Assembly: GCA_029858255.1 (NCBI GenBank)
Contig: JAOUFJ010000009.1
Coordinates: forward strand, 1 to 64,000
Length of the DNA stretch: 64,000 nt
Direction: 5' to 3'
Source: a candidate division WOR-3 bacterium
GTDB lineage: Bacteria; Hydrothermota; Tepidihabitantia; SM23-42
Shown here in pieces: positions 29,039 through 48,067 of the stretch; positions within the stretch are counted from its first letter, which is position 1, and each line of letters opens with the position of its first letter. Made by a program: the position numbers and the translations under genes. The notes under the pieces are model-generated. The model was not told the DNA's origin, searched no databases, and worked only from the letters and a program-made list of their open reading frames with translations.

Positions 29039-30895
29039 ATGTCATTACTGACAAAGATCAAAGAACCAAAAGACCTCAAGGGTCTGACGCTTGAGCAACT
29101 AGAATCATTGGCCAAAGAAATACGTGCCGAGATAGTCAACACATGCGCGAATACCGGCGGACATGTCGCGCCTTCATTGGGTGTTGTGGAATTAACACTT
29201 GCCCTTTATGCAGTTTTCGATGCCGAGCGCGATAAGATCATCTGGGACGTTGGACATCAGACCTACACGCAAAAACTGATCACAGGCCGGGCGAAAAGGT
29301 TCAAGACTCTGCGAACGTATCATGGAATTAGCGGTTTTCCCAAACGCAGCGAGTCAAAGTACGATGTTTTCGATACAGGACATTCTTCAACTTCCCTTTC
29401 CGCGGCAACCGGGTTTGCCCTGGCTCGCGATTTTCGGGGTGATAATTACAAGATCGTGAGTGTAATAGGCGACGGCTCACTTGGTGCGGGTATGGCTTTT
29501 GAAGCTCTCAATCACATCGGTCATTTGAAAAAAGACATAATCGTTGTTCTTAATGATAACGAACATTCGATTGGAGAGAGTGTAGGCGCGCTCTCCCAGT
29601 ATCTTAATAAGGTCATAACGACGAGAACCTATAATCGTTTTCGAGATGATCTTTGGAAATTTCTCGGACGGTTTCCACCTTATTTCCGTGACCGGGGAAG
29701 GAATGTGGCAAAGAGGATGCAAGAAGGTCTCAAAGGACTTTATGCGCCATCGATCATATTTGAAGAGCTGGGATTCAGATATATCGGGCCACTGAACGGT
29801 CATAAACTTGGGCAGTTGATAGATACTCTCTCAAGACTAAAAGAGGTTCGCGGTCCATGGTTTGTACATGTCGTAACCAAAAAAGGTAAGGGCTACGAGC
29901 ATGCCGAAAAATGCCCTGAGGTATTTCACGGAATCGGTCAGTACTGTGTGGAAACCGGTGAGGTGAAGAAGAAATCCACTTCATACACCAAGGTTTTCGG
30001 TGACGCAATAGTGCGATTGGCCAAGCAGAACGATAAGATCGTGGCCATCAGTGCGGGGATGACCCTCGGTACCGGTCTAAAAAAATTCAGTCAGGAGATC
30101 CCCGGAAGATTTTTCGATGTTGGCATTACTGAGCAGCATGCCGTTACAATGGCTGCTGCACTCGCCCTCGATGGTTACATTCCGGTATGTGCGATATACT
30201 CTACTTTCCTGCAGCGTGCTTACGATCAAATCATCCACGATGTGAGTTTACAGAAAGCGCCAGTCATCTTTGCTGTTGACCGGGCTGGACTCGTGGGAGA
30301 AGACGGCCCGACGCACCACGGTCCGTTTGACCTGTCTTATTTCAGTTGCATTCCGAATATCGTTGTTTCGTCACCCCGAAACGGGACAGAGCTTATTGCG
30401 CTGCTTAAGACGGCGGTGCAATACCGGCAAGGACCTTTTGTGATACGATATCCAAGATCATCCTGCGTGTTGGATGACGAAGATCCTGCCCCGCTGTCGA
30501 TCGGAACATGGGAAACCATATGTGATGGCAGGAATTTGGTCATCGTAGCCACAGGTTCCATGGTCGAAGAGGCGCAGGGTGCTCTCACAATATTGAAGAG
30601 AAAGCGCTTACGTCCGAGCCTTGTCAATGCACGTTTTATAAAGCCTCTCGACGGCGCGTTGCTCGATAATCTGATGAAGAAGAACAAGACTATCGTAACG
30701 GTCGAGGAGAATGTGTGTCACGGTGGCTTGGGTAGTCTTGTTTCCGAATATTGCGGCGAGAGGAATGCCAGGGTAAGAGTTCGCTGTATCGGTTTACCAA
30801 ACAGTTATGTCGAACACGGCGCCAGGCAGATATTGCTGAAAATCACACAGCTTAACGCGGAGGGTATTGCAGAAAGAATTCTTTCAATTTTATGA
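29039..30895 (+). CDS. dxs: 1-deoxy-D-xylulose-5-phosphate synthase
   Basis: A 618-residue thiamine-diphosphate enzyme of full length, first step of the MEP isoprenoid pathway. Visible are DVGHQTYTQKLITGR (His of the active site), GDGSLGAGMAFEALNH (ThDP-binding GDG...N), FDVGITEQHAVTMAAALA and the transketolase C-domain. AAGGAG precedes the ATG. Its product feeds the ispA enzyme encoded just upstream, and its cofactor is made by the thiamine genes elsewhere in this window. The stop codon overlaps the next start (ATGA). Confidence 0.97.
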   Translation: MSLLTKIKEPKDLKGLTLEQLESLAKEIRAEIVNTCANTGGHVAPSLGVVELTLALYAVFDAERDKIIWDVGHQTYTQKLITGRAKRFKTLRTYHGISGFPKRSESKYDVFDTGHSSTSLSAATGFALARDFRGDNYKIVSVIGDGSLGAGMAFEALNHIGHLKKDIIVVLNDNEHSIGESVGALSQYLNKVITTRTYNRFRDDLWKFLGRFPPYFRDRGRNVAKRMQEGLKGLYAPSIIFEELGFRYIGPLNGHKLGQLIDTLSRLKEVRGPWFVHVVTKKGKGYEHAEKCPEVFHGIGQYCVETGEVKKKSTSYTKVFGDAIVRLAKQNDKIVAISAGMTLGTGLKKFSQEIPGRFFDVGITEQHAVTMAAALALDGYIPVCAIYSTFLQRAYDQIIHDVSLQKAPVIFAVDRAGLVGEDGPTHHGPFDLSYFSCIPNIVVSSPRNGTELIALLKTAVQYRQGPFVIRYPRSSCVLDDEDPAPLSIGTWETICDGRNLVIVATGSMVEEAQGALTILKRKRLRPSLVNARFIKPLDGALLDNLMKKNKTIVTVEENVCHGGLGSLVSEYCGERNARVRVRCIGLPNSYVEHGARQILLKITQLNAEGIAERILSIL

Positions 30896-33800
30896 TCTTT
30901 CTATTTTCTCTTGCGATATTAGCACAATTTACCACTCCCTTTGATGAGAGATTGTACATCGATGCCTACGGTGAATTCGTTATATACGCCCGGTATTTTC
31001 AAGGAACCCTGGTCAGTATCGATACTGTAAAGACGATCGAGGATTACATATCCTCTGGTTTCTATACGCGCAACCAGGGACTGTTGCTCAGAGAGTTGAA
31101 GCAGGACATGGCAGAGAGCGGAGGTTACGCAAATAAGGGGCTGTTCGGAACTTTCGAGATTCCCCTACCAAAGGGCGGCTTCAGCGATTTCATGGGCGAA
31201 ACAGGAAAACTTGATGTCGGTGGCTATGTCAAGATTACCCTCGGCGGCAGTGAGACTTTTGTTTCTAACGTGCCCGGATTGGTCGGTCCATCACTCTGGC
31301 CTGAGTTGGAGATGAATCAGGAAATGGCTATCAATCTCGACGGCCAGGTCGGCGACCGGGTGAGGGTATTCATTGACCATAATTCCGAACGGATCAATGA
31401 GAGCCAGAATAAGATCACCGTGACTTACCAGGGGCGCGAAGATGAAGTTATACAGGAAATCCAGGGCGGCGACACTGAGTTGAAAATCCCGACCACGACC
31501 TATACCGGAGACATCCCTTCGCACCGTGGTCTTTTTGGCATAAAATCAAGCGCCAAATTTGGACCGGTGGATCTTGTGGCAATCGCCTCTAATGAGCAAA
31601 CCCAACATCAGGAAATCGATATCGAAGGTAGTGTGCAGGCACAGGCCGATACGATATGGGACCGCGAGTATCAGAAACGCAGATTCTTTTGGCTGGGTAC
31701 CAACGAAACAATAATCCCAGAATCTCTGCAGGTGTACATTGATGATAACAATTTTCAGAACAACAATGTAGCCGGCGGCATCACCCTCTACGGGACGGCT
31801 TATGTTGATGTTAATGGCGATGATATTATTCCCGATGATACCCTGCAGTCTGAAGTTGGCTATTTCACTTTGAAATACCTTGAGCAGGATTACATATTCA
31901 TCCCGGGTAACAATATCGTTGAACTCAAGCAAGGTCTTCAGAAGGACGCTGAGGTTCTCGGCGTAAAATATAGTCTTCTGCGTAATGGACAGATAGTAAA
32001 TGTTGGCGGCATAGTGCAGGATACAGTGGTGCTGAAACTTGTATGCCCGAAGAGCCCGGATAGTACATCGGTCACCTGGCAGTATGAGTTGAGGAATTAC
32101 TATCAGATAGTGGCTCCTGGGTCGCGGCTTGATTCATTGAAGATCTTCTATATCACACCTGGTGGACAGCACAGAGACCGCAATGATGTCGGTGATACAT
32201 ATCTTGAAATTCTGGGACTCGACGATAACAAGGATGGAAGGGTCGATGATTATTTTGGCGAGTACGGGTTTGACGCAGGCCGTGGTCTTCTGATTTTCAG
32301 AGATTCACTACCCTTTGCATCCGACACGCTGGACGACCCCGATCTTGAAATCTACGAGAATCCATATTACATGCAGGGGCGCGGAAAGTATTATCTATAC
32401 AAGAAGACAGTTGAATCCCGTCCCGTATTTTCACTGCCACCGAATGTTGTTGATGTGACGGTATACGTCGACGGTTACGAACAGACTGAAGGCGTGGATT
32501 ATTACGTCAATCTTGATCTCGGGGAACTCGAGTTCAAGAAAGTCATACCGCCTACCGCGCGCGTCAAGATACACGTTGAATATGCACCGTTCTTCTCGGC
32601 GGCTCAAAAATCGCTTATCGGCGTGAGAGCAAGCATGAAGTCCTTTGGTGATGCGTCACTCGGTTCTTCTTTCTTCTATCGGACCGAGTCTTATCCAACG
32701 GATCGCGTGCGGCTGCGGGAGGAGCCTTTTAATCGCATGGTTTGGGAAGCGGATATGTCTTTACCACAGAAACTGCCGTTCCTTACAAGAGCCGTTGACT
32801 GGCTTCCCTTGGTCCAGACCGAAGCCGAATCGAAAATCAATTTGAATGTCGAAACTGCTTATTCGATCTCCGATTTGAATTCCAAGGGTGAAGTGTATCT
32901 CGACGACCTGGAATCATCAACGATAGTGACTAATGAGATTTCGATCACGTACAGTGATTGGGTTCAATCATCAAGGCCAGTAGGCATGCTACAAGATGAT
33001 CTAGCTATCGAAAGAATACTCTGGTATAATCCGCGAGGTGCTGAGGTTCTTACTGCCGGAGATATCTATCTAGACCCGCTTGATCCAAATGAAACTGCTC
33101 ATGTTTTGAGACTTGTATTCAATCCTGACGACCTGTCGTCGTTCGCTGGCTTAATGCAGTATATGTACAGCGCGAATTTCGATGATTGCGAAAATCTCGA
33201 GTTTATCGTAAGGGGCAATGGTGGTCGTATCCATGTTGACCTGGGTCAGGAAATGGCCGAGGACCAATTACGGCGCAATAGCACTGGAATACTGGTCGGT
33301 GTCGGTGTTCTGGATGATGAGGACCGCGACCACAATGGTTCATGGAACGAAAGCAGTGAGGATACCGGATATGATGGTGTCTTTGGTGTTGATGAGGAGA
33401 ACGTGGCCGGCGATGACGCAAATGATGACTATACCGAAAGTGACTATACCGGAGGTATAAATGGCAGTGAGAGTAATCATCTATGGAATACGGAAGATAT
33501 CAACCGTAATGGAATTCTGAACGTCGACAACATTTATTACAGTTATGTAGTCAATCTGGATTCCACAGAATTCATGGTCGAAAATGCAGGTCTTCAGGAA
33601 GGTTGGACGATGTTTCGCATCCCGATCAAAGACACGATGGCTTTTGACACTGTATTGGGGCAACCGGATTGGCGTACCATCAGGTATGTACGTATCTGGC
33701 TGGAGAATTTCTCTTCTGCCGAAACACTTGAAATATATCGTCTTTTTGCCACGGGCAGCAGATGGAAGAATTATGGTGTCAATGGAGATCTTTCGACGTG

Positions 33801-36282
33801 GGACTCAACAGAAGTGTTTACACTGACCCCGGTCAACACCAGAACACACTCCTACTACGAGTCCCCCTTTGTTGAAGAACGTGATCCTCTGACCGGTCAG
33901 GTGAAGAGTGAGGGCGCGCTGGAATTGAGACTTGAGAATATCAGGGAGGGTCATACATGCATTGCGCACCGGCAGACCGACGCCAACGAGGACTATCGTG
34001 CATATGATACGCTGACCTTCTATCTGAACGCCCTGCATTCAAATCCGATCGTATCAATGCGTATCGGCAGCGATTCTGTAAATTATTATGAATATAAGAC
34101 CGAATTCGATAATGGGGTAGCTGTGGCCGGTGGCAATGGCTGGCGTACGTTCACTGTTTCAACGGAGCATCTTCTTGACTTGAAGCAGATCACACAGGGC
34201 GAGGGTGTGGCGAGAGACTCTGAATATGCGGTCGTTGGCAACCCTTCGTTGTCGGTCAATCAATTTTTCGAAATCGCAATTACGAATCAGAATACTACTC
34301 CTTTGACCGATACAATATGGTTTAACGATATCAGATTAATCTCGCCACAAACTGAAATCGGACGTATCATCAGAGCAACAGGTTCACTGAATCTTGCCGA
34401 TCTTGCTTCTGTGACGGTTTCTTTTGATGAATCAAATGGCCGTTTCAAACGTCTTTCGGAGTCCAAGACCATATCGACCAACAGTGCTGGCCGCAACTAT
34501 GCAATAAATTCGAGCATTGCGCTTCACAAATTCTTACTCGAGAAATGGGGATTCAATATGCCCTTGGTCCTCAATTATAGGAATACTCTCCAGAAACCGC
34601 GTTTCTCATATTTCGCCGATGATTTAGAAATCACGGGTGATGAATTGGATAAACAGAAATCGACAAATATCGTTAACTCGTATACGATCAGTCTTTCAAA
34701 ATCAGGTTCAAAAAACTGGCTCATCAAGAACACCCTGGATGCGTTGTCATTCGAGCATAGCCGTTCCAAGACGAATACCCATAACGCGCTCAATGTCGAT
34801 ACTTCAATCACCAAGAGTTACCGTGGGACATATCGGCTCGATCCGCGGGTGTCTTTCAAGCTGCTCGGGCAGGCATTTTCGGTTATGCCACAGAACATAT
34901 CGTTCAACGTGTTGTATGCCGATAACCTTGTGCGCTACTATTATCGTCTAGACCCTGATGACACTTTGCGTTACTCGGCTTCAGGTTCGCAACACCGCAA
35001 GACCATGAACCCTAGTTTCAGCGTGGCCTATTCACCCCACCGAACATTGAGTACGAATTTTGATTTCACTCAGAACCGCGATTCGGTCTCAACACGCGGA
35101 CAATTCGGCGAGGAAGTGGCCAGGAACCAGACGCTTAACGCAACATTCACGGAGGATTTCAAGCTTTTCAGGCCCAGGTTGAGTTTCAATGCCTCGTATA
35201 ACGAAGACTATCGCTTCGAGATTCGCCAGGATGAAGACCTGCGGAATGTCTCGAATAGTGCTAGATACGGAGTCGATGGAACGGTGGATGTCCAGCGGAT
35301 CGTCAAGTTCATTACACGCCTGCGGGACGAAACAAAAGACACGCTCCTCACGGTTGGGACACCGGCCTGGCTCGCCAAGCAGGTAGAATATTTCATTGAA
35401 CGATTGCAGAATCCTTCGCTGAGCTGGTCGCGTCTGAAGAACTCCAACTACCTCAGTGTCAAGAGACGTCCTGATTTTGAATACCAGTTTGGCCTCGTGG
35501 ATTCAATCCCATCCGATGATGTTTCGCCGAACAGTTATCCGGGCAGGGGCATGACCGATTCATACAAGGCAACATCAGGATTGAACCTGAACTTCATTAC
35601 TCTGAACGGTGTCTATAACGAAAATATCAACAGGACGTACGCTTTTGGCAACATAGAGACACGTACGCATACTACGTCCTATCCAAATGCCAATGTGAGG
35701 GTGGCAAAACTTGAAGTCCTGCCGTTCCTGAAGAAATATACACATTCATCATCTATCAATATGATGTTCAACCAGACATTTGAACGTCGTTTCCAGGATA
35801 CCGTCCTGCAGTCGGATTCGAAGAGTATTAGTTTTAGCCCCCTGGTCGGTTGGCAGGTGCAATGGGTGAAAGGAATTTCTTCGACAATAGACATCTCGTA
35901 TTCGGAGACGGCGTCAAGAGATTATCAGGGTGCGTACATCGTGCCGTCAAAAACGCTGAACCGAGGTGCTTCAGTGAGTTTGGGCTATACATTCAGCGCG
36001 CCCAAAGGTCTCGGCCTACCGTTCCTAAAAGGCATTCGCTTCTCGTCCAACCTCGCGCTGAGCTTGGGACTCAGTTACAACCGAAGCACAAACTATTCTA
36101 CAAACCTCACTGAGCCAATCTACGATTCGAGTGTTATGCAGGGCGATCTGGGTTTGTCCTACAACTTCTCCTCAAGCATCACGGGCGGTGCGAATTTTTC
36201 TTACTCGCAGAACAAAGAGAAGGTGCGCGATCAGGATACGAAAAGAGTTGGTGTTAACATATGGACGAACATAAATTTCTGA
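30892..36282 (+). CDS. sprA: SprA-like T9SS outer-membrane translocon / giant beta-barrel protein
   Basis: 1796 residues, shorter than the roughly 2400 of Bacteroidota SprA. The N-terminal MNQEMAINLDGQVGDRVRV (141-159), HNSERINESQNKITVTYQG and IQEIQGGD follow SprA/Sov closely; long amphipathic beta strands fill the rest, and the last residues NIWTNINF end in Phe as outer-membrane barrels do. Aspartate-rich EF-hand-like loops occur near residues 442-463 and 805-880. A short hydrophobic N-terminus (LFSLAILA) precedes Gln12. SprA forms the pore that exports T9SS cargo. It overlaps dxs by 4 bp and the next gene by 22 bp. Confidence 0.85.
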   Translation: MIFLFSLAILAQFTTPFDERLYIDAYGEFVIYARYFQGTLVSIDTVKTIEDYISSGFYTRNQGLLLRELKQDMAESGGYANKGLFGTFEIPLPKGGFSDFMGETGKLDVGGYVKITLGGSETFVSNVPGLVGPSLWPELEMNQEMAINLDGQVGDRVRVFIDHNSERINESQNKITVTYQGREDEVIQEIQGGDTELKIPTTTYTGDIPSHRGLFGIKSSAKFGPVDLVAIASNEQTQHQEIDIEGSVQAQADTIWDREYQKRRFFWLGTNETIIPESLQVYIDDNNFQNNNVAGGITLYGTAYVDVNGDDIIPDDTLQSEVGYFTLKYLEQDYIFIPGNNIVELKQGLQKDAEVLGVKYSLLRNGQIVNVGGIVQDTVVLKLVCPKSPDSTSVTWQYELRNYYQIVAPGSRLDSLKIFYITPGGQHRDRNDVGDTYLEILGLDDNKDGRVDDYFGEYGFDAGRGLLIFRDSLPFASDTLDDPDLEIYENPYYMQGRGKYYLYKKTVESRPVFSLPPNVVDVTVYVDGYEQTEGVDYYVNLDLGELEFKKVIPPTARVKIHVEYAPFFSAAQKSLIGVRASMKSFGDASLGSSFFYRTESYPTDRVRLREEPFNRMVWEADMSLPQKLPFLTRAVDWLPLVQTEAESKINLNVETAYSISDLNSKGEVYLDDLESSTIVTNEISITYSDWVQSSRPVGMLQDDLAIERILWYNPRGAEVLTAGDIYLDPLDPNETAHVLRLVFNPDDLSSFAGLMQYMYSANFDDCENLEFIVRGNGGRIHVDLGQEMAEDQLRRNSTGILVGVGVLDDEDRDHNGSWNESSEDTGYDGVFGVDEENVAGDDANDDYTESDYTGGINGSESNHLWNTEDINRNGILNVDNIYYSYVVNLDSTEFMVENAGLQEGWTMFRIPIKDTMAFDTVLGQPDWRTIRYVRIWLENFSSAETLEIYRLFATGSRWKNYGVNGDLSTWDSTEVFTLTPVNTRTHSYYESPFVEERDPLTGQVKSEGALELRLENIREGHTCIAHRQTDANEDYRAYDTLTFYLNALHSNPIVSMRIGSDSVNYYEYKTEFDNGVAVAGGNGWRTFTVSTEHLLDLKQITQGEGVARDSEYAVVGNPSLSVNQFFEIAITNQNTTPLTDTIWFNDIRLISPQTEIGRIIRATGSLNLADLASVTVSFDESNGRFKRLSESKTISTNSAGRNYAINSSIALHKFLLEKWGFNMPLVLNYRNTLQKPRFSYFADDLEITGDELDKQKSTNIVNSYTISLSKSGSKNWLIKNTLDALSFEHSRSKTNTHNALNVDTSITKSYRGTYRLDPRVSFKLLGQAFSVMPQNISFNVLYADNLVRYYYRLDPDDTLRYSASGSQHRKTMNPSFSVAYSPHRTLSTNFDFTQNRDSVSTRGQFGEEVARNQTLNATFTEDFKLFRPRLSFNASYNEDYRFEIRQDEDLRNVSNSARYGVDGTVDVQRIVKFITRLRDETKDTLLTVGTPAWLAKQVEYFIERLQNPSLSWSRLKNSNYLSVKRRPDFEYQFGLVDSIPSDDVSPNSYPGRGMTDSYKATSGLNLNFITLNGVYNENINRTYAFGNIETRTHTTSYPNANVRVAKLEVLPFLKKYTHSSSINMMFNQTFERRFQDTVLQSDSKSISFSPLVGWQVQWVKGISSTIDISYSETASRDYQGAYIVPSKTLNRGASVSLGYTFSAPKGLGLPFLKGIRFSSNLALSLGLSYNRSTNYSTNLTEPIYDSSVMQGDLGLSYNFSSSITGGANFSYSQNKEKVRDQDTKRVGVNIWTNINF

Positions 36283-37085
36283 TACGAGTTGCTCGCTGTC
36301 ATCTGCTGTTGATTGGTTTGTTACAGGTTTTACCTCTCTTTTATGTTCATGCAAAGCATCCTTACGACCATTTCACCGCATTCTGTAGCATAGGTGAACG
36401 TGCGCCTGGGACTGCTGGTCATATCAGGGCGCGGGATTTCATTATCGGAAATTTGAAGAATCCGGAGGTCGATACATTCCGGGTGTTAGGCACAGATTAC
36501 TTCAATATCTACAAGCGGTTTCTTGGAAATGGTCCCCGTATCGCTTTCGCCGCTCACTGGGATTCTGACGTAGGGTGTCCGGGTGCCAATGACGGTGGCT
36601 CGGGTGTGGCAATACTACTCAGCCTGGCCGATACTCTGGCAAAGGATCGGCCGGGACACGGTGTTGACCTTCTCTTCTTCGACGGTGAAGATGTGGAAGC
36701 GGCCGAACTACTTGGCTCAAAACACTTTGCCGCCAGTTGTATTGTCAACTATGACTACGTCATAGTGCTCGATATGGTCGGCGATAAGGACCTGCAGGTA
36801 TTCCAGGAAGGTAATTCAAAGAAATTCTTTCCAGCCTTTGTGGATTCGATATGGGAGATAGGGCAGTTGCTTGCGCCGGACATCTTCATTCCGCTCGTGA
36901 AGTATTACATCGTCGACGACCATATTTCTCTCATTAAGTACGGCATCAGGTCGATCGATGTGATCGATTTTGATTATCCTTACTGGGATACGGCGGATGA
37001 TACGGTGGATAAATGCAACCAGCAAAGTCTCGACACGATCTACCATTTTGTATTGCATCTGATTTACGAGCGTTCTGTATATTGA
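36261..37085 (+). CDS. M28-family metalloenzyme, glutaminyl-peptide cyclotransferase-like
   Basis: A 274-residue exported or membrane-anchored protein: Arg-containing N-terminus and a hydrophobic stretch (LLLIGLLQVLPLFYV), then an M28/glutaminyl-cyclase fold with AAHWDSD, PGANDGGSGVAILLSLAD, FFDGEDVEAAELLG and a C-terminal region ending YWDTADDTVDKCNQQSL. The pattern is closer to glutaminyl cyclases than to aminopeptidases. The final zinc ligand, normally His in a YWHT-like motif, is Asp here (a GAT codon), so activity is uncertain. It overlaps sprA by 22 bp, tying it to outer-membrane export. Confidence 0.75.
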   Translation: MDEHKFLIRVARCHLLLIGLLQVLPLFYVHAKHPYDHFTAFCSIGERAPGTAGHIRARDFIIGNLKNPEVDTFRVLGTDYFNIYKRFLGNGPRIAFAAHWDSDVGCPGANDGGSGVAILLSLADTLAKDRPGHGVDLLFFDGEDVEAAELLGSKHFAASCIVNYDYVIVLDMVGDKDLQVFQEGNSKKFFPAFVDSIWEIGQLLAPDIFIPLVKYYIVDDHISLIKYGIRSIDVIDFDYPYWDTADDTVDKCNQQSLDTIYHFVLHLIYERSVY

Positions 37086-37411
37086 TGAAAGGTATGAAAA
37101 AAAGCGAAATTATTGTTCTGTTACTTTTTATCGTTTCTCTGGTTGCCATTAATGTGTACAATTACTGCAGAAAAGAGAGATTGAAGGAAACTTACTCCGT
37201 ACTCATCGAGCGCGGTAAGATCAAACTGGCGATCAATGATATTGGAGCTGGTGAATTAGAGAGTCTGCCAGGCATCGGTCGCGTCCTTGCCAGGCGTATA
37301 ATCGATTACCGTGATCAGATCGGGAGATTCAAGTCCCTCGAGGAGCTAAAACAGGTCAATGGTATCGGAGATAAGCTATATCAGAAAGTCTATCCCTACC
37401 TGAAACTGTAA
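37085..37411 (+). CDS. ComEA-like helix-hairpin-helix protein
   Basis: About 108 residues: an N-terminal transmembrane helix (IIVLLLFIVSLVAINVY) and two helix-hairpin-helix motifs, LPGIGRVLARRIIDYRDQIG and VNGIGDKLYQKVYPYL, preceded by the ININDAxxxEL-like KLAINDIGAGELESL. ComEA relatives bind incoming double-stranded DNA at the membrane during transformation. The frame opens further upstream, but the ATG at 37085 overlaps the stop of the previous gene (TGATG) and fits the domain. No other competence gene is in the window. Confidence 0.85.
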   Translation: MKGMKKSEIIVLLLFIVSLVAINVYNYCRKERLKETYSVLIERGKIKLAINDIGAGELESLPGIGRVLARRIIDYRDQIGRFKSLEELKQVNGIGDKLYQKVYPYLKL

Positions 37412-37462: not shown

Positions 37463-38959
37463 TTACATGCTGGCGAGAAATTCGTAAAGCGTGCGGACGC
37501 CAAACCCAGTCCCTCCGGGCGGTGTATAATCGCTCTCTTTGTCTGTAAGCTCTGTCCCAGCAACATCTATATGCAGCCATTTAGCTTTTTCCACAAAGGC
37601 TTTGAGGAATATTCCAGCGGTTATGGCCGAGGCATAACGACCGCCTGAATTTTTGAGATCGGCGACATCGCTCTTCAGCAATTCGACGTAGCCTTCATAA
37701 AGCGGCAAAGGCCACAGCGGTTCACCGGTTCGCTCGGAGACTCTGATTAGTTTATCGCTCATCGCTTTGTTGTTACCCATCAAACCGGCAATTTTTTCAC
37801 CCAACGCGACCACACATCCTCCTGTCAGGGTCGCTATATCGATAATGAGCTTTGCCTTTTTCCTTTCAGCGTAGACGAGAGCATCGGCGAGAGTCAATCT
37901 GCCTTCGGCATCAGTACTGACGATTTCTACCGTCTTACCGTTCATTGCACGAACCACATCGCCCGGACGAAAGGCCGAGCCCGAGGGCATATTCTCGACT
38001 GCCGGAATGATCGTCATCAGGTTAGTGCTCGTGCCCAGCTTCGCAAGGGCGAGGGTAGTGCCAACAACCACGGCGCCACCTGCCATGTCGCTTTTCATCG
38101 CGCCCATTCCCCCTGATTGTTTTATGGATATTCCACCGGAATCAAATGTGACCGTCTTTCCGATCAATGTAACCAATGGTTTGCGTGCAGAAGCAATCCT
38201 TAAAACGATGAATCGGGGTTCATGTGAGCTGCCTTGTCCAACCGCCAGCAGGGCGCCCATGCCCATTTTCCGCATCGCGGTTTTGTCCAGGCACTGGCAC
38301 TTTATTATCCCTCCGAGTCCCCAATCCCTTATCAGTTTCTGAATGGACTCGTGCATTTTCTCCGGCGTGAGGACGTTTGCCGGTTCATTGATCAGGTCGC
38401 GGGCGGCGTTTTGGGCATTGGCAAGGATTTGTCCCGACTTGATTGTACTCTTTATTTGCTTTGCATTTGATGGATCTTCCTCTGCGATCACAAAATCTTT
38501 TATCTGATGTCGATCTGAGGATTCCTTATACGCGCTGAAATTGTATAGTGCAAGGCATGTTCCTTCAACCAGTGACTGTGCCGCTCTCGATATATCCATG
38601 CCACCGATACCAGCGCCATGAACGACCGTTCCGATACGCTTAGCGTTGATTTTTCTTGCTTTTTTAGCCGCGGCTCCGGCTGCTCTTCTAATGGTCTCGT
38701 AAGTGAGTTCTTCTGGCTTGCCAATCCCGACGAGGATTATTTTCCTCGCGTGAAGTTTAGGGCATTCATGCAGTACCGTCACCTCACCAACCTGGCCGGT
38801 CAGTTCACGGTCTGTGATGAGTCTCGATATCAATCCTTTAAGTGTTTTATCCACGGCGCCTGTTGTGCCATGTGGTGATTTCTTACCTTCAAAAATACTG
38901 AGGATAATGGCATCACCTTTGAAATCAATAATTGATTTGGTAAGTATGCTTATTTTCAT
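37463..38959 (-). CDS. pepA: Leucyl aminopeptidase (M17)
   Basis: About 498 residues of the M17 family: an N-terminal macro-like domain and a catalytic domain with LIGKTVTFDSGGISIK (metal and active-site Lys), KSDMAGGAVV and STDAEGRLTLADAL. It removes N-terminal amino acids in the cytoplasm using two metal ions. Two ATGs lie two codons apart; the one at 38959 lies 6 nt after TATACT and no Shine-Dalgarno is present, so a leaderless mRNA starting here is likely. It faces the ComEA-like gene with a 51-bp gap and no clear terminator. Confidence 0.95.
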   Translation of the reverse strand: MKISILTKSIIDFKGDAIILSIFEGKKSPHGTTGAVDKTLKGLISRLITDRELTGQVGEVTVLHECPKLHARKIILVGIGKPEELTYETIRRAAGAAAKKARKINAKRIGTVVHGAGIGGMDISRAAQSLVEGTCLALYNFSAYKESSDRHQIKDFVIAEEDPSNAKQIKSTIKSGQILANAQNAARDLINEPANVLTPEKMHESIQKLIRDWGLGGIIKCQCLDKTAMRKMGMGALLAVGQGSSHEPRFIVLRIASARKPLVTLIGKTVTFDSGGISIKQSGGMGAMKSDMAGGAVVVGTTLALAKLGTSTNLMTIIPAVENMPSGSAFRPGDVVRAMNGKTVEIVSTDAEGRLTLADALVYAERKKAKLIIDIATLTGGCVVALGEKIAGLMGNNKAMSDKLIRVSERTGEPLWPLPLYEGYVELLKSDVADLKNSGGRYASAITAGIFLKAFVEKAKWLHIDVAGTELTDKESDYTPPGGTGFGVRTLYEFLASM

Positions 38960-38965
38960 GCTCAT

Positions 38966-41175: not shown

Positions 41176-41606
41176 GCAAAATAGTGGTGAAGATAACAGG
41201 TGATTTTGTTCCACAGTATCAAAGCGAACAGGCGGCGGGTTGCGACCTTCACGCCTGTATAGCTGAGGATGTCGTGATAAAGCCACAGGAATATTGTACC
41301 ATCCCGACCGGCATAAAAGTAGAAATTCCCGAAGGCTATGAGGCTCAGGTCAGGCCGAGAAGCGGCCTCGCGTCAGCTCACGGCATTGGCATTTTGAATA
41401 CGCCGGGTACAATTGACGCTGACTACCGAGGCGAAATAAAGGTGATATTATTCAACTTTGGCAAAATGCCGTTCAGGATAAAGAACAGAGATCGCATTGC
41501 TCAATTGGTGTTCAACAAGATCGAGCATGTTTCGTTTGAAATAGTAGAGGATCTTGAGAGAACGGGAAGGCAGGAAGGTGGATTTGGCCACACCGGGAGG
41601 CAATGA
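41172..41606 (+). CDS. dut: dUTP diphosphatase
   Basis: About 144 residues with all five motifs of trimeric dUTPases: AGCDLHA, PRSGLAS, GTIDADYRGEI, RIAQLVF and the C-terminal RTGRQEGGFGHTG. It hydrolyses dUTP to keep uracil out of DNA and to supply dUMP. The start at 41172 overlaps the acyltransferase stop (ATGA); the 14 extra residues in the longer frame are not family sequence. Confidence 0.97.
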   Translation: MSKIVVKITGDFVPQYQSEQAAGCDLHACIAEDVVIKPQEYCTIPTGIKVEIPEGYEAQVRPRSGLASAHGIGILNTPGTIDADYRGEIKVILFNFGKMPFRIKNRDRIAQLVFNKIEHVSFEIVEDLERTGRQEGGFGHTGRQ

Positions 41607-41660
41607 TTTGAGACCGGTTATGCTGAAATGCGACGATTCGGAAGGGGTGGATCGGTATCG

Positions 41661-42791
41661 ATGAAGATATTGATGGTCACGGAGACATATTATCCCTTGA
41701 TAGGCGGCATCCCCGATCATATCTCGCATCTTGCCGACGAGTTGCGGGAACGCGGACACGTGGTCAAAATCCTTACCGCTCGCTTCGGCTGGGATCATCA
41801 AGCAACCGACGAGGATATTGTAAGAATCGGGCGGGGGATACCGATTCGCGCCAATAAATCTTTTGCGCGGCTTACCCTTGGTTGGAGACCTTCGAATAAG
41901 GTGAAGCAGTTCCTGGAGGATTATCAACCCGATGTCATACACGTTCATGGTTCCCTGGCACCGATGTTACCGATTCTGGCTATCAGGCATTCAAAAGCAA
42001 AGACTATCGCCACATTTCATGCCGGGCATAGAAAATCAATTGGTTACATGCTCTTTCGACCACTGCTCATGCCTTATTTCAGGAAATTCGACCGTCTGGT
42101 TGCTGTTTCCAAGACAGCCGAATTTGCGATGAGCAAGTATTTCAGCGGTGATTACAAGATAATACCTAATGGTATCGATACGGATGGTTTCAATCCGAAA
42201 GGCCCGTTCATCGAGCAATTTGCGAATAACCGAAAAAAGATTTTGTACATGAACCGCCTCGAACCAAAAAAGGGATTACCGCATCTTTTGCGGGCTTTGT
42301 ACCACATAAAGCGGGAGATCCCAGACGTTCTGCTCATAGTGGCTGGGTCAGGGCCGTTCGCCAAGTACTACAGGGATATGGTTGACGATACCATAATGGA
42401 TAATGTAGTATTTGTTGGTAAGATTCCCGGGAGACCGGTTTCGTTAAGGGCGTCCTACTACCGAAGTTGTGATATATTCTGCGCACCATCCATCGGCCAT
42501 GAGAGTTTCGGCATAGTACTTTTGGAGGCGATGGCTTGTGCAAAACCAGTAGTCGCCTCACACATTGATGGGTTCATACACGTGCTGGAACACGGAAAAG
42601 AAGGATTATTCTTCCCTTCGAAGGATGACAAGGCGCTGGCGGCGGCGACAATAAAGATTCTTAAAGACCCGGGCCTTGCAGAACAAATGGGTAAAGCAGG
42701 AAGGAAGAAAGCGCTGGCATACTCGTGGAGGAAAGTGGCCGTAGACGTTGAACATCTCTATGAGAGACTCAGAAGAAATGACACCGGGTGA
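41661..42791 (+). CDS. GT4 family glycosyltransferase
   Basis: About 376 residues in a GT-B fold. The N-terminus MKILMVTETYYPLIGGIPDHISHLADEL is typical of GT4 transferases, followed by NGIDTDGFNP, YMNRLEPKKGLPHLL and a donor site with SFGIVLLEAMACAKPVVAS. It transfers a sugar from a nucleotide donor to a lipid or glycan acceptor, such as phosphatidylinositol or an LPS/capsule intermediate. The longer frame from 41628 adds 11 residues that do not fit the family. The deacetylase downstream suggests envelope-glycan work. Confidence 0.88.
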   Translation: MKILMVTETYYPLIGGIPDHISHLADELRERGHVVKILTARFGWDHQATDEDIVRIGRGIPIRANKSFARLTLGWRPSNKVKQFLEDYQPDVIHVHGSLAPMLPILAIRHSKAKTIATFHAGHRKSIGYMLFRPLLMPYFRKFDRLVAVSKTAEFAMSKYFSGDYKIIPNGIDTDGFNPKGPFIEQFANNRKKILYMNRLEPKKGLPHLLRALYHIKREIPDVLLIVAGSGPFAKYYRDMVDDTIMDNVVFVGKIPGRPVSLRASYYRSCDIFCAPSIGHESFGIVLLEAMACAKPVVASHIDGFIHVLEHGKEGLFFPSKDDKALAAATIKILKDPGLAEQMGKAGRKKALAYSWRKVAVDVEHLYERLRRNDTG

Positions 42792-42806
42792 ACGCGATGA
42801 TTCTTT

Positions 42807-44162
42807 TTGATAAAGCAAACATTTCTCGCAGTACTGCAATGGGGGTGCTGCATTAAGAGGGCGAATTTCTGGAATATACTGAAGGTTAGGGATTTCTCGA
42901 TATTCACTTTTGCGCAGACCGTGAGTCAATTCGGGGACAAACTGGATTACATCGCCCTGGTAGCAATCATTGGTTTGTTCCCGAAGGAACAAGCGCCGCT
43001 GTTGCTTTCTCAGATGATGATATTCATAACGCTCCCTGTATTGATATTCGGGCCGATCGCGGGTATTCTTGTCGACCGCTGGCATAAAAAAACCGTTATG
43101 GTTATCTGTGACGCGCTGCGTACTGTTTGTGCAATTATGATCCCAATACTTTTTCTGGCCACGCGCAGTATCTATCCGGTTTTTGCTGCTGTGTTTTTCA
43201 TGTTCCTACTCGCTTTGTTCTTCAACGCGGCACGTAGTGCTATCATACCTAACCTCGTGTCCAGGGAGCGTATTTTGACTGCGAATTCAGTTGTGAATTT
43301 TGTTTCGCGCGGTGCGACTTTCATGGGCATGCTCGTGGGTGGAATCATCGTTGATTGGCAGATATGGCATAAAGCGTTCGGCATAGCTGGCTGGACAGCG
43401 GCCTTTATTCTGGATAGTGTTACTTTTGCCGTATCAGCATTTCTTTTGTACATAATGAAGGTCAGATTGCCGGAAATTCCCAAGAAGGTTGAACACTTGA
43501 AACCCAGGGGATTTTTCATGTTGCTGAAAGGGGGATTGTCCAAGATGTGGCACGAGTTGGTATACGCTCTGAAGATGATTGTCCGTGAGAAGAATCTTGC
43601 GTTTGTAATGGCAACAATCGTATTGATGGTTATCGCGGGGAGTGCGATCTACATCCTGGTGATACCGACAGTACAGCAGGAGATGGCATGGGGCACCAGT
43701 GGCGTAGGTTTTCTGGCGGCAATCGGCGCCATTGGATTATTGCTCGGTGCATACCTGACTGGTATCTTCGGCCATCACTTCGATATGAAGATTTTGATGC
43801 TGGCGAGTTTTATCATCATAGGCGGAGCATTGTTACTTTTTCCAATCCTGAACAGTTTTCTCGTTTTTGCACTGGTGTGTTTCGTTTGCGGGACAGCTAT
43901 TTCACCCGTCTTCATTGGCCAGGATACCTTAATACACCATTATGCTGATGAACTGGTCCGTGGCAGGATTTTTTCGATAAGGGATTGGATACTCAACGGG
44001 TTATTCGCCATCGGCGCTGCGTTAGTAGGTTTCTTGTCTGCGGTTATTAACAAGGATTATCTTTTCGTGATATTTGGGATATGCGTTGCCTCTTTGGCAA
44101 CGCTCGGTTGGTTGATATTAGCACGTGGTAAAAGCAATTCAGTTTCACAGAGTCACACCTAA
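42807..44162 (+). CDS. Major facilitator superfamily transporter
   Basis: About 450 residues with twelve hydrophobic segments and the MFS loop motif GPIAGILVDRWHKKTVMVICD between helices 2 and 3. It resembles the MFS_3/enterobactin-exporter-like group. The substrate is unknown. The only in-frame start is a TTG at 42807 without a good ribosome site; the first 20 residues are unlike the family, so the true start may be further in, near IKRANFW. Its 3' end overlaps the polysaccharide deacetylase start by 38 nt. Confidence 0.87.
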   Translation: MIKQTFLAVLQWGCCIKRANFWNILKVRDFSIFTFAQTVSQFGDKLDYIALVAIIGLFPKEQAPLLLSQMMIFITLPVLIFGPIAGILVDRWHKKTVMVICDALRTVCAIMIPILFLATRSIYPVFAAVFFMFLLALFFNAARSAIIPNLVSRERILTANSVVNFVSRGATFMGMLVGGIIVDWQIWHKAFGIAGWTAAFILDSVTFAVSAFLLYIMKVRLPEIPKKVEHLKPRGFFMLLKGGLSKMWHELVYALKMIVREKNLAFVMATIVLMVIAGSAIYILVIPTVQQEMAWGTSGVGFLAAIGAIGLLLGAYLTGIFGHHFDMKILMLASFIIIGGALLLFPILNSFLVFALVCFVCGTAISPVFIGQDTLIHHYADELVRGRIFSIRDWILNGLFAIGAALVGFLSAVINKDYLFVIFGICVASLATLGWLILARGKSNSVSQSHT

Positions 44163-44853
44163 GGTCCAGTTCTGTGGTACCTGGAACCACCCTGGGCAAT
44201 TCGAGGGCTTCATACGTTCGATTCAGCGTGATTTCAGGGTGGTGCTGCCCGGCGATGAAGGAGACGGGTTGGTTATTACCTTTGATGATGGGGATATGAG
44301 CGTATATCACCATGCATTTCCGATTCTCAAACGGTGCGGTGTGAAGGCAGTTGTGTTTCTGATCGGCGAATATATAGGTAAGGACGATCTATGGGATATC
44401 ACTTTGCTGGGTAAGAGAAGCGTTCACCTTGGATGGGATGAGATCTGTGAAATGAAGGAGTGGGGGATCGAATTCGGATCGCATACAATGAACCACCGTA
44501 ATCTCACGACGCTCAATATGGATGAAATTTCTTATGAGCTGTCAGAATCGAAAAGGATTCTTGAGGACAGAATTGGACAAGTCCGATGTGTATCCTACCC
44601 ATTCAATCGAGTGAATGACCAGATTGTCAGTCTTGCCAGGCAGGCCGGCTACCAATACGGGTTCGGCGGGTCAGGACAGAGTGACCTGCTCATAAAAAAA
44701 GAAGCAGTATATATAACTGATACTCCCTGGAGCTTAAATGTTAAAATACGCGAGCGTCCGCGACTACTATACCGTTACGATAGGGCTAAGCAGCAGGTCA
44801 TAAACTACTTCACGATAGCCACGATGCTTGCGAAGAAACAGTCAAAGGGTTAG
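44125..44853 (+). CDS. Polysaccharide deacetylase (NodB/CE4 family)
   Basis: A 242-residue CE4-type enzyme with TFDDGD (catalytic Asp and metal-binding Asp), FGSHTMNHRNLT (metal-binding histidines) and a later VSYPFNRVND segment. It removes N- or O-acetyl groups from a surface or intermediate glycan. No signal peptide is seen, so it may act on a lipid-linked intermediate in the cytoplasm. The GTG start overlaps the MFS gene by 38 nt. Confidence 0.88.
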   Translation: MVKAIQFHRVTPKVQFCGTWNHPGQFEGFIRSIQRDFRVVLPGDEGDGLVITFDDGDMSVYHHAFPILKRCGVKAVVFLIGEYIGKDDLWDITLLGKRSVHLGWDEICEMKEWGIEFGSHTMNHRNLTTLNMDEISYELSESKRILEDRIGQVRCVSYPFNRVNDQIVSLARQAGYQYGFGGSGQSDLLIKKEAVYITDTPWSLNVKIRERPRLLYRYDRAKQQVINYFTIATMLAKKQSKG

Positions 44854-45189
44854 GGTTTAGATGCTGGATAAGGATCGGATGATGTTGGGCTGTTTGGAGA
44901 GGCGATACTGTTTCGTAATCGTGGTTCGTATGTCGTATTCGTATTATTTCCTGAGATGAAAGACGCTGCAGAAGTGCGTGTTCAGTATGGTGAATCGAGC
45001 ATCAAGTTTCCAACGGGAATAACGATATTAGCGATATTAACGAGATTAACGTTGTGTTTTTGTATATGGGGCCAAGCCGGGTTCCGATTCGCCTTTCGAT
45101 ACCGTCGGCTGAGTGGCGATAGGTATTGATAGTTTTGATGGGTTATATACGTATAGCATAAAAGAGTGTGAATAAGGAAGGGAGGAATA
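44854..45189 (+). other. Intergenic region before the TPR gene, no gene seen
   Basis: About 336 bp with no coding frame. It carries AACGATATTAGCGATATT-type short direct repeats near 45018. A weak promoter-like TTGATG, 16-nt spacer, CATAAA arrangement occurs near 45133-45160. The strong GGAAGGGAGG ribosome site at its end serves the next gene. Confidence 0.45.
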
Positions 45190-45924
45190 ATGGTTAGAAA
45201 AAGCATCGTCTGTGCATTGTTGCTGGTCGCCATGGTATGGGCTCAGAGTGCAGATTCTTTGATCGACCATGCGGTAGAATTGTACGAGACAAGGCATCTC
45301 GATGATACGAACCTGTCAAAGAGTGCTTCGATACTTGAAGGGATCGTTGAGAGTGATCCGAAGAATGTTCGAGCGCTTTATGAGCTATCGAAAGTCTGTT
45401 TCTTTCTTGGCGACGAGGCCGAGGAAAAGGACGCGAAACTGAAACTCTTCTACAAGGGCAGGGATTATGGTGAGAGTGCCATTGAACTCGATGAGGAATC
45501 GCCCGATGCGCATTTTTGGTATATGGTAAATGTTGGAAGAGTGGGACAAACAAAGGGCGTATTGAATTCACTCGTCTTGGTACCCACGGTGAGAGAGGAG
45601 ATCAACACAGTATTGGAACTTGATCCAAAACATACCGGTGCTCTGGATGCGCAGGCAATGCTGTATTATGAGCTTCCTGGGCTTTTGGGTGGTAACCTCA
45701 ACAAATCAATCGAGTCTCTTGATAAGGCCATTGCTCTTGATTCAAACTACACCTTGCTTTACGTCGATATGGCGAAAGTATATATCAAAAAGAAGAATTA
45801 TGAAAAGGCTCGCTGGTACCTGGGTCGGGCAGTCGAAATAGAAACTCCAACCTATGAAGCCGATCACGTCCTCGATGACAAACCGGAGGCGATAGAGTTG
45901 CTGGAGGAGATCAAAGACAAGTAG
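45190..45924 (+). CDS. Exported TPR-repeat protein
   Basis: A 244-residue protein. A signal peptide (VRKSIVCALLLVAMVWA) has a probable cleavage site A18/Q19, leaving Gln at the new N-terminus. The mature part is helical with at least three tetratricopeptide-type repeats, clearest at NVRALYELSKVCFFLGDEAEE and YTLLYVDMAKVYIKKKNYEKA. It is likely periplasmic or outer-membrane-linked and a protein-protein interaction module. The Shine-Dalgarno is very strong. Confidence 0.82.
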   Translation: MVRKSIVCALLLVAMVWAQSADSLIDHAVELYETRHLDDTNLSKSASILEGIVESDPKNVRALYELSKVCFFLGDEAEEKDAKLKLFYKGRDYGESAIELDEESPDAHFWYMVNVGRVGQTKGVLNSLVLVPTVREEINTVLELDPKHTGALDAQAMLYYELPGLLGGNLNKSIESLDKAIALDSNYTLLYVDMAKVYIKKKNYEKARWYLGRAVEIETPTYEADHVLDDKPEAIELLEEIKDK

Positions 45925-46012
45925 TAACCGATAACTGATAACAGATATCTGATGACAGATAACCGCTGACAGAAGTCCGGCGTTCATAGTCACAAAGGAA
46001 AACAAAGCGTAA

Positions 46013-46942
46013 ATGGAAAAGATGGTCGATACACTGGTCATGCTGTTCCGGCTTGACAAAGGCAACAGGTTCAAGAAGTACGGATACTTTGAGGGTTTTC
46101 TGAGCATTTTACTGAATGTTGTTCTATCTACTCTCAAGTTCGTTTTTGGCACGTTACTGAATAGTGTTTCGTTGATCGCCGACGCACTTCACTCGCTTTC
46201 TGATGTCATCACATCGGTGATAGTGGTGTTCGGTTTTAAGATTTCGGCAAAGCCGCCAGATGAGGAACATCCGTTCGGGCACGGAAGGGCGGAACGTATT
46301 GTTTCGATAGTTATTGCTTGTTTGCTCATCGTGGTGGGTTTTGAATTCTTCATGAGCGGTTTTGAACGATTCAGGAATCCGATTCCCATCAGGTCAGATG
46401 CTCTGGTGATCGCGATGCTTGTGGGGTCGATATTCATTAAGGAATTCCTTTACCAGATATCTTTACGTCTGGGGCGTAGGATCAATTCCGCCAGCCTTAA
46501 AGCAGATGCCTTTCATCACCGAACCGACGCGATTTCAACGGTTCTCGTCTTGATTGGGTTTGTATGTTTTCGCTTTGGGCTGTTCAGTCTTGATGGCTTA
46601 ATGGGTATGGCGGTTGCTCTGATAATTGTATATGCCGGTGTCTCCATCATCATAGAATCGGGTAATTTCTTAATCGGCCAGGCGCCGTCTTCGTTTTTGG
46701 TCGATAGGATCAAGGACACGGCAGCGCAATGCGACGGGGTAAACGATGTGCATCATATCCATGTCCATGATTATGGAGGTCAACTTGAGGTTACCATACA
46801 TGTAAGATTGAAAAGCAATATTCTTCTGGACGATGCGCATCTGAAAGCGTCAGAGGTTGAGGAGGCGATCAGGCGCTGTGTGCCGGGTGCCGAAGTTACC
46901 GTGCACCTTGAACCCTACAATGAAGGCAGAAGAAATTCGTAA
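46013..46942 (+). CDS. Cation diffusion facilitator (CDF) family metal transporter
   Basis: A 309-residue protein with six hydrophobic segments and the CDF hallmarks SLIADALHSLSDVITS (metal site in helix 2), HPFGHGRAERI and the second half-site KADAFHHRTDAIST in helix 5. A cytoplasmic alpha-beta domain ends the protein with metal-binding HHIHVHDYGG. It exports Zn(II), Fe(II) or similar ions in exchange for protons. The 88-bp gap before it holds short AACTGATAACAG/ATGACAGATAACC repeats. It overlaps the GNAT gene by 23 bp. Confidence 0.92.
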   Translation: MEKMVDTLVMLFRLDKGNRFKKYGYFEGFLSILLNVVLSTLKFVFGTLLNSVSLIADALHSLSDVITSVIVVFGFKISAKPPDEEHPFGHGRAERIVSIVIACLLIVVGFEFFMSGFERFRNPIPIRSDALVIAMLVGSIFIKEFLYQISLRLGRRINSASLKADAFHHRTDAISTVLVLIGFVCFRFGLFSLDGLMGMAVALIIVYAGVSIIIESGNFLIGQAPSSFLVDRIKDTAAQCDGVNDVHHIHVHDYGGQLEVTIHVRLKSNILLDDAHLKASEVEEAIRRCVPGAEVTVHLEPYNEGRRNS

Positions 46943-47384
46943 GGCACACGACGGTTTCACAATAAGAAAATTCCGTATGGCAGACTACGATTCATTATTG
47001 GAACTGTGGGACAATGCTGGATTACCTCATAAGCCTAAAGGTCGCGATACTAGGGAGAACATATCGCGGGAGATCAATCATCCTAATGCGGTGTTTCTCG
47101 TGGCTGAGAAGGACGGTTGTCTGATCGGTTCTGCGTTCGGCACGCACGACGGGAGAAAGGGTTGGATAAACCGGGTTGCTGTTCTTCCTGCACACCGGAG
47201 GCAGGGCATCGCAGCCGATTTAGTTGAAGAAATAGAAAAGCACATCACGAGAATGGGGATCGGCATAATTGCCTGTCTTGTTGAAGAATGGAACAGAGAT
47301 TCACTAAGTTTTTTCCAGAAGATGGGTTATGTTTGCCACAAAGACATATTCTATCTTACAAAGCGGGAGGTTGATTACATATGA
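46920..47384 (+). CDS. GNAT family N-acetyltransferase
   Basis: About 154 residues with a GNAT fold: motif A INRVAVLPAHRRQGIAADLVEEIEK carries the acetyl-CoA-binding R/QxxGxG/A loop, and the C-terminal FFQKMGYVCH matches motif B. The acceptor is unknown. The ATG at 46920 lies within the CDF gene end; the longer frame (46857) starts inside the transporter coding region and has no family sequence. The gene overlaps the racemase start (ATGA). Confidence 0.85.
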   Translation: MKAEEIRKAHDGFTIRKFRMADYDSLLELWDNAGLPHKPKGRDTRENISREINHPNAVFLVAEKDGCLIGSAFGTHDGRKGWINRVAVLPAHRRQGIAADLVEEIEKHITRMGIGIIACLVEEWNRDSLSFFQKMGYVCHKDIFYLTKREVDYI

Positions 47385-48067
47385 AGAAAATAGGTATTAT
47401 CGGGGGGTTGGGCCCGGAAGCAACAATAGACTACTATCGTACGATCATAAATGAATGCCGTGAGCAAACACAAGGCGACGTTCCGGAGATCATCCTCTAC
47501 AGTTTGAACCTCAGGGACTTTCCAAGTATTGATAATGAAGATGCGGTCGTAAAATGGTTATTAGACGGTCTCAAAGCGCTGCACCGTGCTGGGGCACATT
47601 TTGCTATCATCTCTGCAAACACGCCGCATATTGTATTTGATAAGCTAAAGCCTCTGTCGCCGCTACCTTTGTTGAGCATTGTGGAAGAAACGTGGACGGC
47701 AGTCAGGGCATTGGGTGTTGGCAGGGTGGGGCTTTTTGGTACCAAGGTAACCATGAGTAGTGATTTTTACCAGCGGGTTTTCGAAAATTATGGTATCGCG
47801 CTAGTCGTACCATCAATAGAAGAACAGGACTATATTGATCATAAAATATCGTCAGAACTTATGTTTAACAACATATGTGAAGAAACGAGGAATGGCTTGC
47901 TTGGAATAGCAGAGCGGATGATCAGCGATGAAGATATAGAGGCACTAATTCTTGGATGCACCGAGTTACCGCTCATACTCACCCATGATGATTTGGGTAT
48001 CCCGTTCCTTAACACAACGAGGATCCATGCACTCAGTGCCATCCGCTATTGTCTGACAGGTCTGTAG
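47381..48067 (+). CDS. Aspartate/glutamate racemase family protein, one catalytic Cys missing
   Basis: A 228-residue two-lobe protein opening MKKIGIIGGLGPEATIDYYR, the classic aspartate-racemase start. The second catalytic cysteine is present in ILGCTELPL (near residue 189). The first, normally CNTxH, reads SANTPH near residues 73-78, so Ala replaces Cys. Such a protein may be one-sided, hydrolyse a different substrate or have lost racemase activity. It is coupled to the GNAT gene by a 4-bp overlap. Confidence 0.87.
   Translation: MKKIGIIGGLGPEATIDYYRTIINECREQTQGDVPEIILYSLNLRDFPSIDNEDAVVKWLLDGLKALHRAGAHFAIISANTPHIVFDKLKPLSPLPLLSIVEETWTAVRALGVGRVGLFGTKVTMSSDFYQRVFENYGIALVVPSIEEQDYIDHKISSELMFNNICEETRNGLLGIAERMISDEDIEALILGCTELPLILTHDDLGIPFLNTTRIHALSAIRYCLTGL

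Follow-up and report, generated by a model that had tools for sequence, protein, structure and literature searches.

Does the glutaminyl-cyclase (QC)-like gene that overlaps sprA in a candidate division WOR-3 (Stahlbacteria) genome encode an enzyme that caps the N-terminal Gln of exported proteins, as described by the Q-rule of the Bacteroidota? The source genome (G000) comprises 2.72 Mb in 82 contigs; "the window" is the whole stretch of 64,000 nucleotides that was analysed. The locus contains the following features.

29039..30895, plus strand: dxs, with a 4-bp overlap with the sprA start.
30892..36282, plus strand: sprA/sov, outer-membrane translocon of the type IX secretion system (T9SS), 1796 aa, NCBIfam TIGR04189.
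36261..36282, plus strand: overlap of sprA and the QC-like gene, 22 bp, the first 22 bases of the QC-like open reading frame.
36261..37085, plus strand: QC-like M28 protein, 274 aa, ATG start, Pfam Peptidase_M28 (E 5.6e-29).
37085..37411, plus strand: membrane-anchored helix-hairpin-helix (ComEA-like) protein, PF12836 (2.2e-18), immediately 3' of the QC-like gene.

The operon thus has the order dxs, sprA, QC-like gene and small helix-hairpin-helix membrane protein. SprA scored 384 bits against TIGR04189 (cut-off 200), and the 22-bp overlap claimed by the first-pass annotation was found. The QC-like reading frame is real, since orthologues of 56-85% identity occur across the order. Almost every genome sampled from the same genus, family and order has such a close orthologue, whereas the genomes sampled from other families of the class have none; among the other WOR-3 genomes searched, 15 contain more distant relatives (35-47% identity). 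Within the order, upstream DNA could be read at 17 loci. At each of them sprA directly precedes the QC-like gene, and a comparison of the starts by hand showed the 22-bp overlap to be kept in 11 of these 17. A homologue next to sprA was not found in 14 of the 15 more distant WOR-3 genomes, the only exception being G050 from another class (QC-like gene 41352-42191, sprA 42265-47481, both on the minus strand). Judged by 17/17 loci in the order and 1/15 distant genomes, the linkage to sprA is old but not universal. Viral contigs were searched for relatives of the QC-like protein, and none were found. In two loci (L064 and L065) an in-frame TAA comes after the start with the 22-bp overlap, and an ATG further on, 5 bp past sprA, takes over. 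Of 13 related loci examined, 12 have an ORF similar to the ComEA-like neighbour at the equivalent position.

The nearest PDB sequence matches of the QC-like protein were Bacteroidota QCs (6qro, 3tc8, 3gux, 6qql), and hmmsearch with the family profile returned the bacteroidal QC 6qro as best match (E 1.5e-43). Its structure was predicted with a pLDDT of 87. In VIA-align comparisons the model reached Z 34-35 with the QCs of Bacteroides, Porphyromonas, Tannerella and Parabacteroides and 33.3 with an Acidobacteriales QC, whereas aminopeptidases gave at most 29.2. The M28 alpha/beta fold expected of a type II glutaminyl cyclase is therefore closest to QCs, and we conclude that the protein descends with the bacteroidal QCs.

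Active-site positions were taken from PMC7948796, PMC5837995 and PMC7522609. In the alignment, the metal ligand Asp (HsAsp159/PgAsp149) is present as Asp111, the second ligand Glu/Asp (HsGlu202/PgAsp183) as Asp144, which is the bacteroidal form, and the catalytic Glu and Asp (HsGlu201, HsAsp248) as Glu143 and Asp171. The third metal ligand, His330 in HsQC and His299 in PgQC, is replaced.

36987..36989, plus strand: codon of Asp243, placed by alignment with characterised QCs; PDB relatives have His.

Asp243 is shared by all 18 homologues that were read, and Asp occupies this site in every WOR-3 orthologue read as well as in a 38% identical relative (L071). A sequencing error is excluded as its source by this breadth of homologues. 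His99, Asp111, Glu143, Asp144, Asp171 and Asp220 are likewise unchanged in all of 19 sequences, the most distant of which has 38% identity. The insertion loop bearing the pocket Trp (HsTrp207/PgTrp193) is absent, and the position of PgPhe294 aligns to a gap. All 144 Zn-bound M28 structures surveyed in PMC7522609 carry His at the ligand-3 site. QC activity cannot be assumed with Asp instead of His as ligand 3, and since one defining metal ligand fails, the protein was not filed as a proven QC: by its residues, the product of ORF 36261-37085 is a variant. The first-pass label "glutaminyl-cyclase-like" thus holds for the bacteroidal-QC branch of M28, in sequence and predicted fold, and not for the third metal ligand, where His is Asp.

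That the protein is a plain M28 aminopeptidase, trimming exported proteins, is quite improbable. It has some general M28 features, its loop behind Glu-Asp is shorter, with a loop length nearer to that of aminopeptidases, and the fold is common to known two-zinc aminopeptidases (Z 28-29). However, QCs score higher in the fold comparison by 5-6 Z units. Two-zinc M28 aminopeptidases carry Asn or Asp right behind the bridging Asp, where QCs have Gly or Ser and where Gly112 follows Asp111 here, and His at ligand site 5, where Asp243 stands; Trp242 replaces their Tyr before ligand 3, and Asp replaces Glu at ligand 2.

A different reading of the same residues is that the protein is a non-cyclase or inactive M28 relative, in which the change of His to Asp abolishes cyclase activity, and whose role is that of a factor for the binding or assembly of SprA or of exported N-termini. 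The lost His ligand and the missing Trp193 loop are in line with this, as is the tight operon with sprA. On the other hand, the remaining catalytic residues do not vary in the 19 sequences, as would be unusual in a dead enzyme, and Asp is itself a metal ligand. We consider such a protein unlikely. The lumenal domain of GPAA1 (PMC7522609) offers a partial parallel: it is an M28 domain of the single-zinc type, with Asp at site 3 and a residue other than His at site 5. It differs in that the latter residue is Tyr, not Asp, and in being a eukaryotic transamidase subunit, its zinc mode being a model.

Compared with the bacteroidal type II QCs (PgQC PG_2157, TfQC 6qro, BtQC 4fuu/7d1e, PdQC 3tc8), the WOR-3 protein shares the fold (Z 34-35), the metal Asp, the ligand-2 Asp, the catalytic Glu and Asp, the Gly behind the metal Asp, the Trp before ligand 3 and, as predicted, periplasmic export. 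It differs from them in ligand 3 (Asp for His), in the missing Trp193 insertion loop, in a leader of signal peptidase I (SPI) type that has no lipobox, and in the operon with sprA; the PgQC gene heads an operon that also includes PG_2158 and hemG (PMC10653852). The N-terminal signal peptide or anchor spans residues 2-28, with a plausible cleavage at VHA|KHPY. The likely +1 residue is thus Lys; in homologues it is Lys, Glu or Arg, with Thr in L061, and never Gln. QCs outside the Bacteroidota are already known from the structures of the Fimbriiglobus ruber (7d1b) and Acidobacteriales (7d18) enzymes, which share this distribution with the WOR-3 protein. The motif VIDFDY..W is common to 7d1b and the WOR-3 protein, both of which are without the bacteroidal insertion, but 7d1b and 7d18 have His in the ligand-3 region, unlike the protein with Asp243. 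The 38% identical homologue L071:7647-8774 (isolate LB3_2), also an Asp metal-site variant, has a lipobox-like leader (LLIACGG), and the ORF upstream of it is not sprA-like in appearance.

The first-pass annotation had placed Gln right behind the leaders of SprA and of an exported TPR protein, and both residues were confirmed at these positions.

30925..30927, plus strand: codon of SprA Gln12, right behind an 11-residue hydrophobic leader.
45190..45924, plus strand: exported TPR protein, signal peptide MVWA|Q19.
45244..45246, plus strand: codon of Gln19 of the TPR protein.

SprA begins with MIFLFSLAILA-Q12. Its leader has about 8-11 hydrophobic residues without Lys or Arg, and is not the product of a mis-called start, since the same start and a similar leader length recur in 11 orthologues. 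Gln stands directly behind the leader in all 11, and to judge from this conservation it is clearly under constraint; Pro at +5 is equally invariant. The leader may be cut before this Gln. The cleavage site had been called plausible; the -1 residue, however, varies between A, T, S and N and gives a poor signal-peptidase consensus. The TPR protein begins with MVRKSIVCALLLVAMVWA-Q19, its Gln coming after a good signal peptide; among its orthologues, L054 has Gln and G031, which is devoid of the QC-like gene, has Asn at the likely site.

A wider set of candidate substrates was provided by the T9SS, which is present in G000 with SprA, PorU (450 bits) and about 120 matches to the C-terminal cargo domain (CTD, Por_Secre_tail). 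PMC5837995 describes T9SS as occurring seldom, if at all, outside the Bacteroidetes, and no description of one in WOR-3/Stahlbacteria was found in the literature searched. All 41 class relatives searched have SprA.

The residue at +1 was counted in two sets, with signal peptides sampled from scattered genome stretches. The strict automatic set was not built to look for Gln as such. It gave Gln at +1 in 8/37 signal peptides of G000, in 13/74 of three WOR-3 genomes with the gene versus 11/59 of three without it (Fisher p=1), and in 8/14 of Prevotella (genomes with the gene versus Prevotella, p=0.004). The second set consisted of CTD proteins, which are expected to be exported as T9SS cargo, with cleavage sites placed by hand on their N-termini. 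Such placement is a weakness, as it was made with knowledge of the hypothesis; as it was applied alike to both groups, it should neither create nor hide a difference between them. Gln was found at +1 of the cargo in 11/29 (G000), 2/8 (G010) and 2/8 (G012) with the gene and in 6/14 (G031) and 1/8 (G028) without it, that is, 15/45 versus 7/22 (p=1), where a modest effect of the gene may exist, the samples being small. An earlier automatic site picker was discarded: it put some sites in the wrong place (LLASA|FAQ where LLASAFA|Q is correct) and lowered the share of Gln, even in Prevotella. An EM model whose +1 column was left free gave 16-17% Gln in genomes that have the gene, 8-18% in those that lack it and 37% in Prevotella; it was superseded by the stricter and the hand-placed sets. 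E. coli yielded too few signal peptides to serve as control (2/6).

The enrichment of Gln at +1 implied by the first-pass annotation was observed: class-wide it reached 22/67 of the T9SS cargo (33%, 22-45%), far higher than the 3-4% Gln in mature sequence, and on the cargo of G000 Gln was the commonest +1 residue (11/29 = 38%, 95% interval 21-58%). Under the Q-rule, most SPI substrates start with Gln: more than 48% have it at +1, with a Bacteroidota mean of 71% (PMC5837995). The class as a whole lies far below this mean, and G000 alone is borderline, its interval touching the lowest Bacteroidota values. Neither does Gln at +1 go with the presence of a QC. A plant-type QC was considered as source of the bias in the gene-less relatives and rejected, since none was found in G031 and G028; the M28 proteins of these two have frames of 442-864 codons and are not QC-sized. 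G012, with both QC types, has no higher Gln frequency. Plant-type QCs (PF05096, E ~1e-90) were found beside the M28 gene in G008, G009, G012, G020, G021 and G022 of the same family.

A Q-rule that depends on the QC-like gene is not supported. If the gene drove a complete Q-rule of the Bacteroidota type in WOR-3, this would account for the preference for Gln on G000 cargo and for the presence of a QC-like enzyme; such a rule is disfavoured as very improbable by the class-wide frequency, by the equal Gln content of relatives without the gene, plant-type QC or small M28 proteins, and by G012. Likeness to the Bacteroidetes Q-rule (PMC5837995, PMC10653852) extends to Gln as the commonest +1 residue and the QC-like enzyme; the differences are that Gln occurs on about one third of the substrates, not 71%, and independently of the gene. 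Of the proposed capping outside the Bacteroidota, the QC-branch gene and the enrichment of Gln are thus supported, whereas dependence on the gene is not, and His is replaced by Asp. Gln frequencies outside the Bacteroidota have been described as intermediate, forming a continuum (PMC5837995). That Gln at +1 is unaffected where the gene is absent also agrees with the inactive or binding protein considered above.

The explanation preferred here, with moderate confidence, is that the gene encodes a periplasmic M28 enzyme of the bacteroidal-QC branch with an Asp111/Asp144/Asp243 metal site, co-expressed with SprA and cyclising the N-terminal Gln of SprA and of about one third of the T9SS cargo and other exported proteins. 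From residues and fold model, the protein probably works like a bacteroidal QC; metal binding, cyclase activity, cleavage of SprA before its Gln and the substrate are what we infer. It would be exported by Sec and then either set free in the periplasm or held there by its N-terminal helix. One metal ion, bound by Asp111, Asp144 and Asp243, would polarise the Gln amide and Glu143 would shuttle a proton, so that ammonia leaves and pyroglutamate forms. After Sec export and removal of the leader, the N-terminal Gln of SprA would be converted in this way. SprA is the first candidate substrate because of the operon and its invariant Gln, and the T9SS cargo starting with Gln would come next. Rather unlikely, in our estimate, is a narrower role, in which a glutaminyl cyclase with a three-Asp site, tied to sprA by its operon, is dedicated in WOR-3 to capping SprA at its N-terminal Gln. 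With this single substrate it would be either an ancestor of the general Q-rule or a side branch of it.

No earlier description was found of the Asp-for-His metal site in a QC-like clade, of the operon with sprA or of a gene-independent Gln bias. Since the Zn-bound M28 structures surveyed in PMC7522609 all have His, a clade in which Asp is invariant throughout permits a direct test of the tolerance of QC chemistry at its metal site, for which the sprA operon offers a specific candidate substrate. The comparison also shows that Gln can be favoured behind signal peptides where no QC is detected, which is relevant to the question of whether the Q-rule preceded the enzyme or followed it.

A gene for an M17 leucyl aminopeptidase (37463-38965, minus strand) is convergent with the sprA/QC-like operon. 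N-terminal pyroglutamate would withstand M17-type enzymes, and the M17 protein of the window looks cytosolic.
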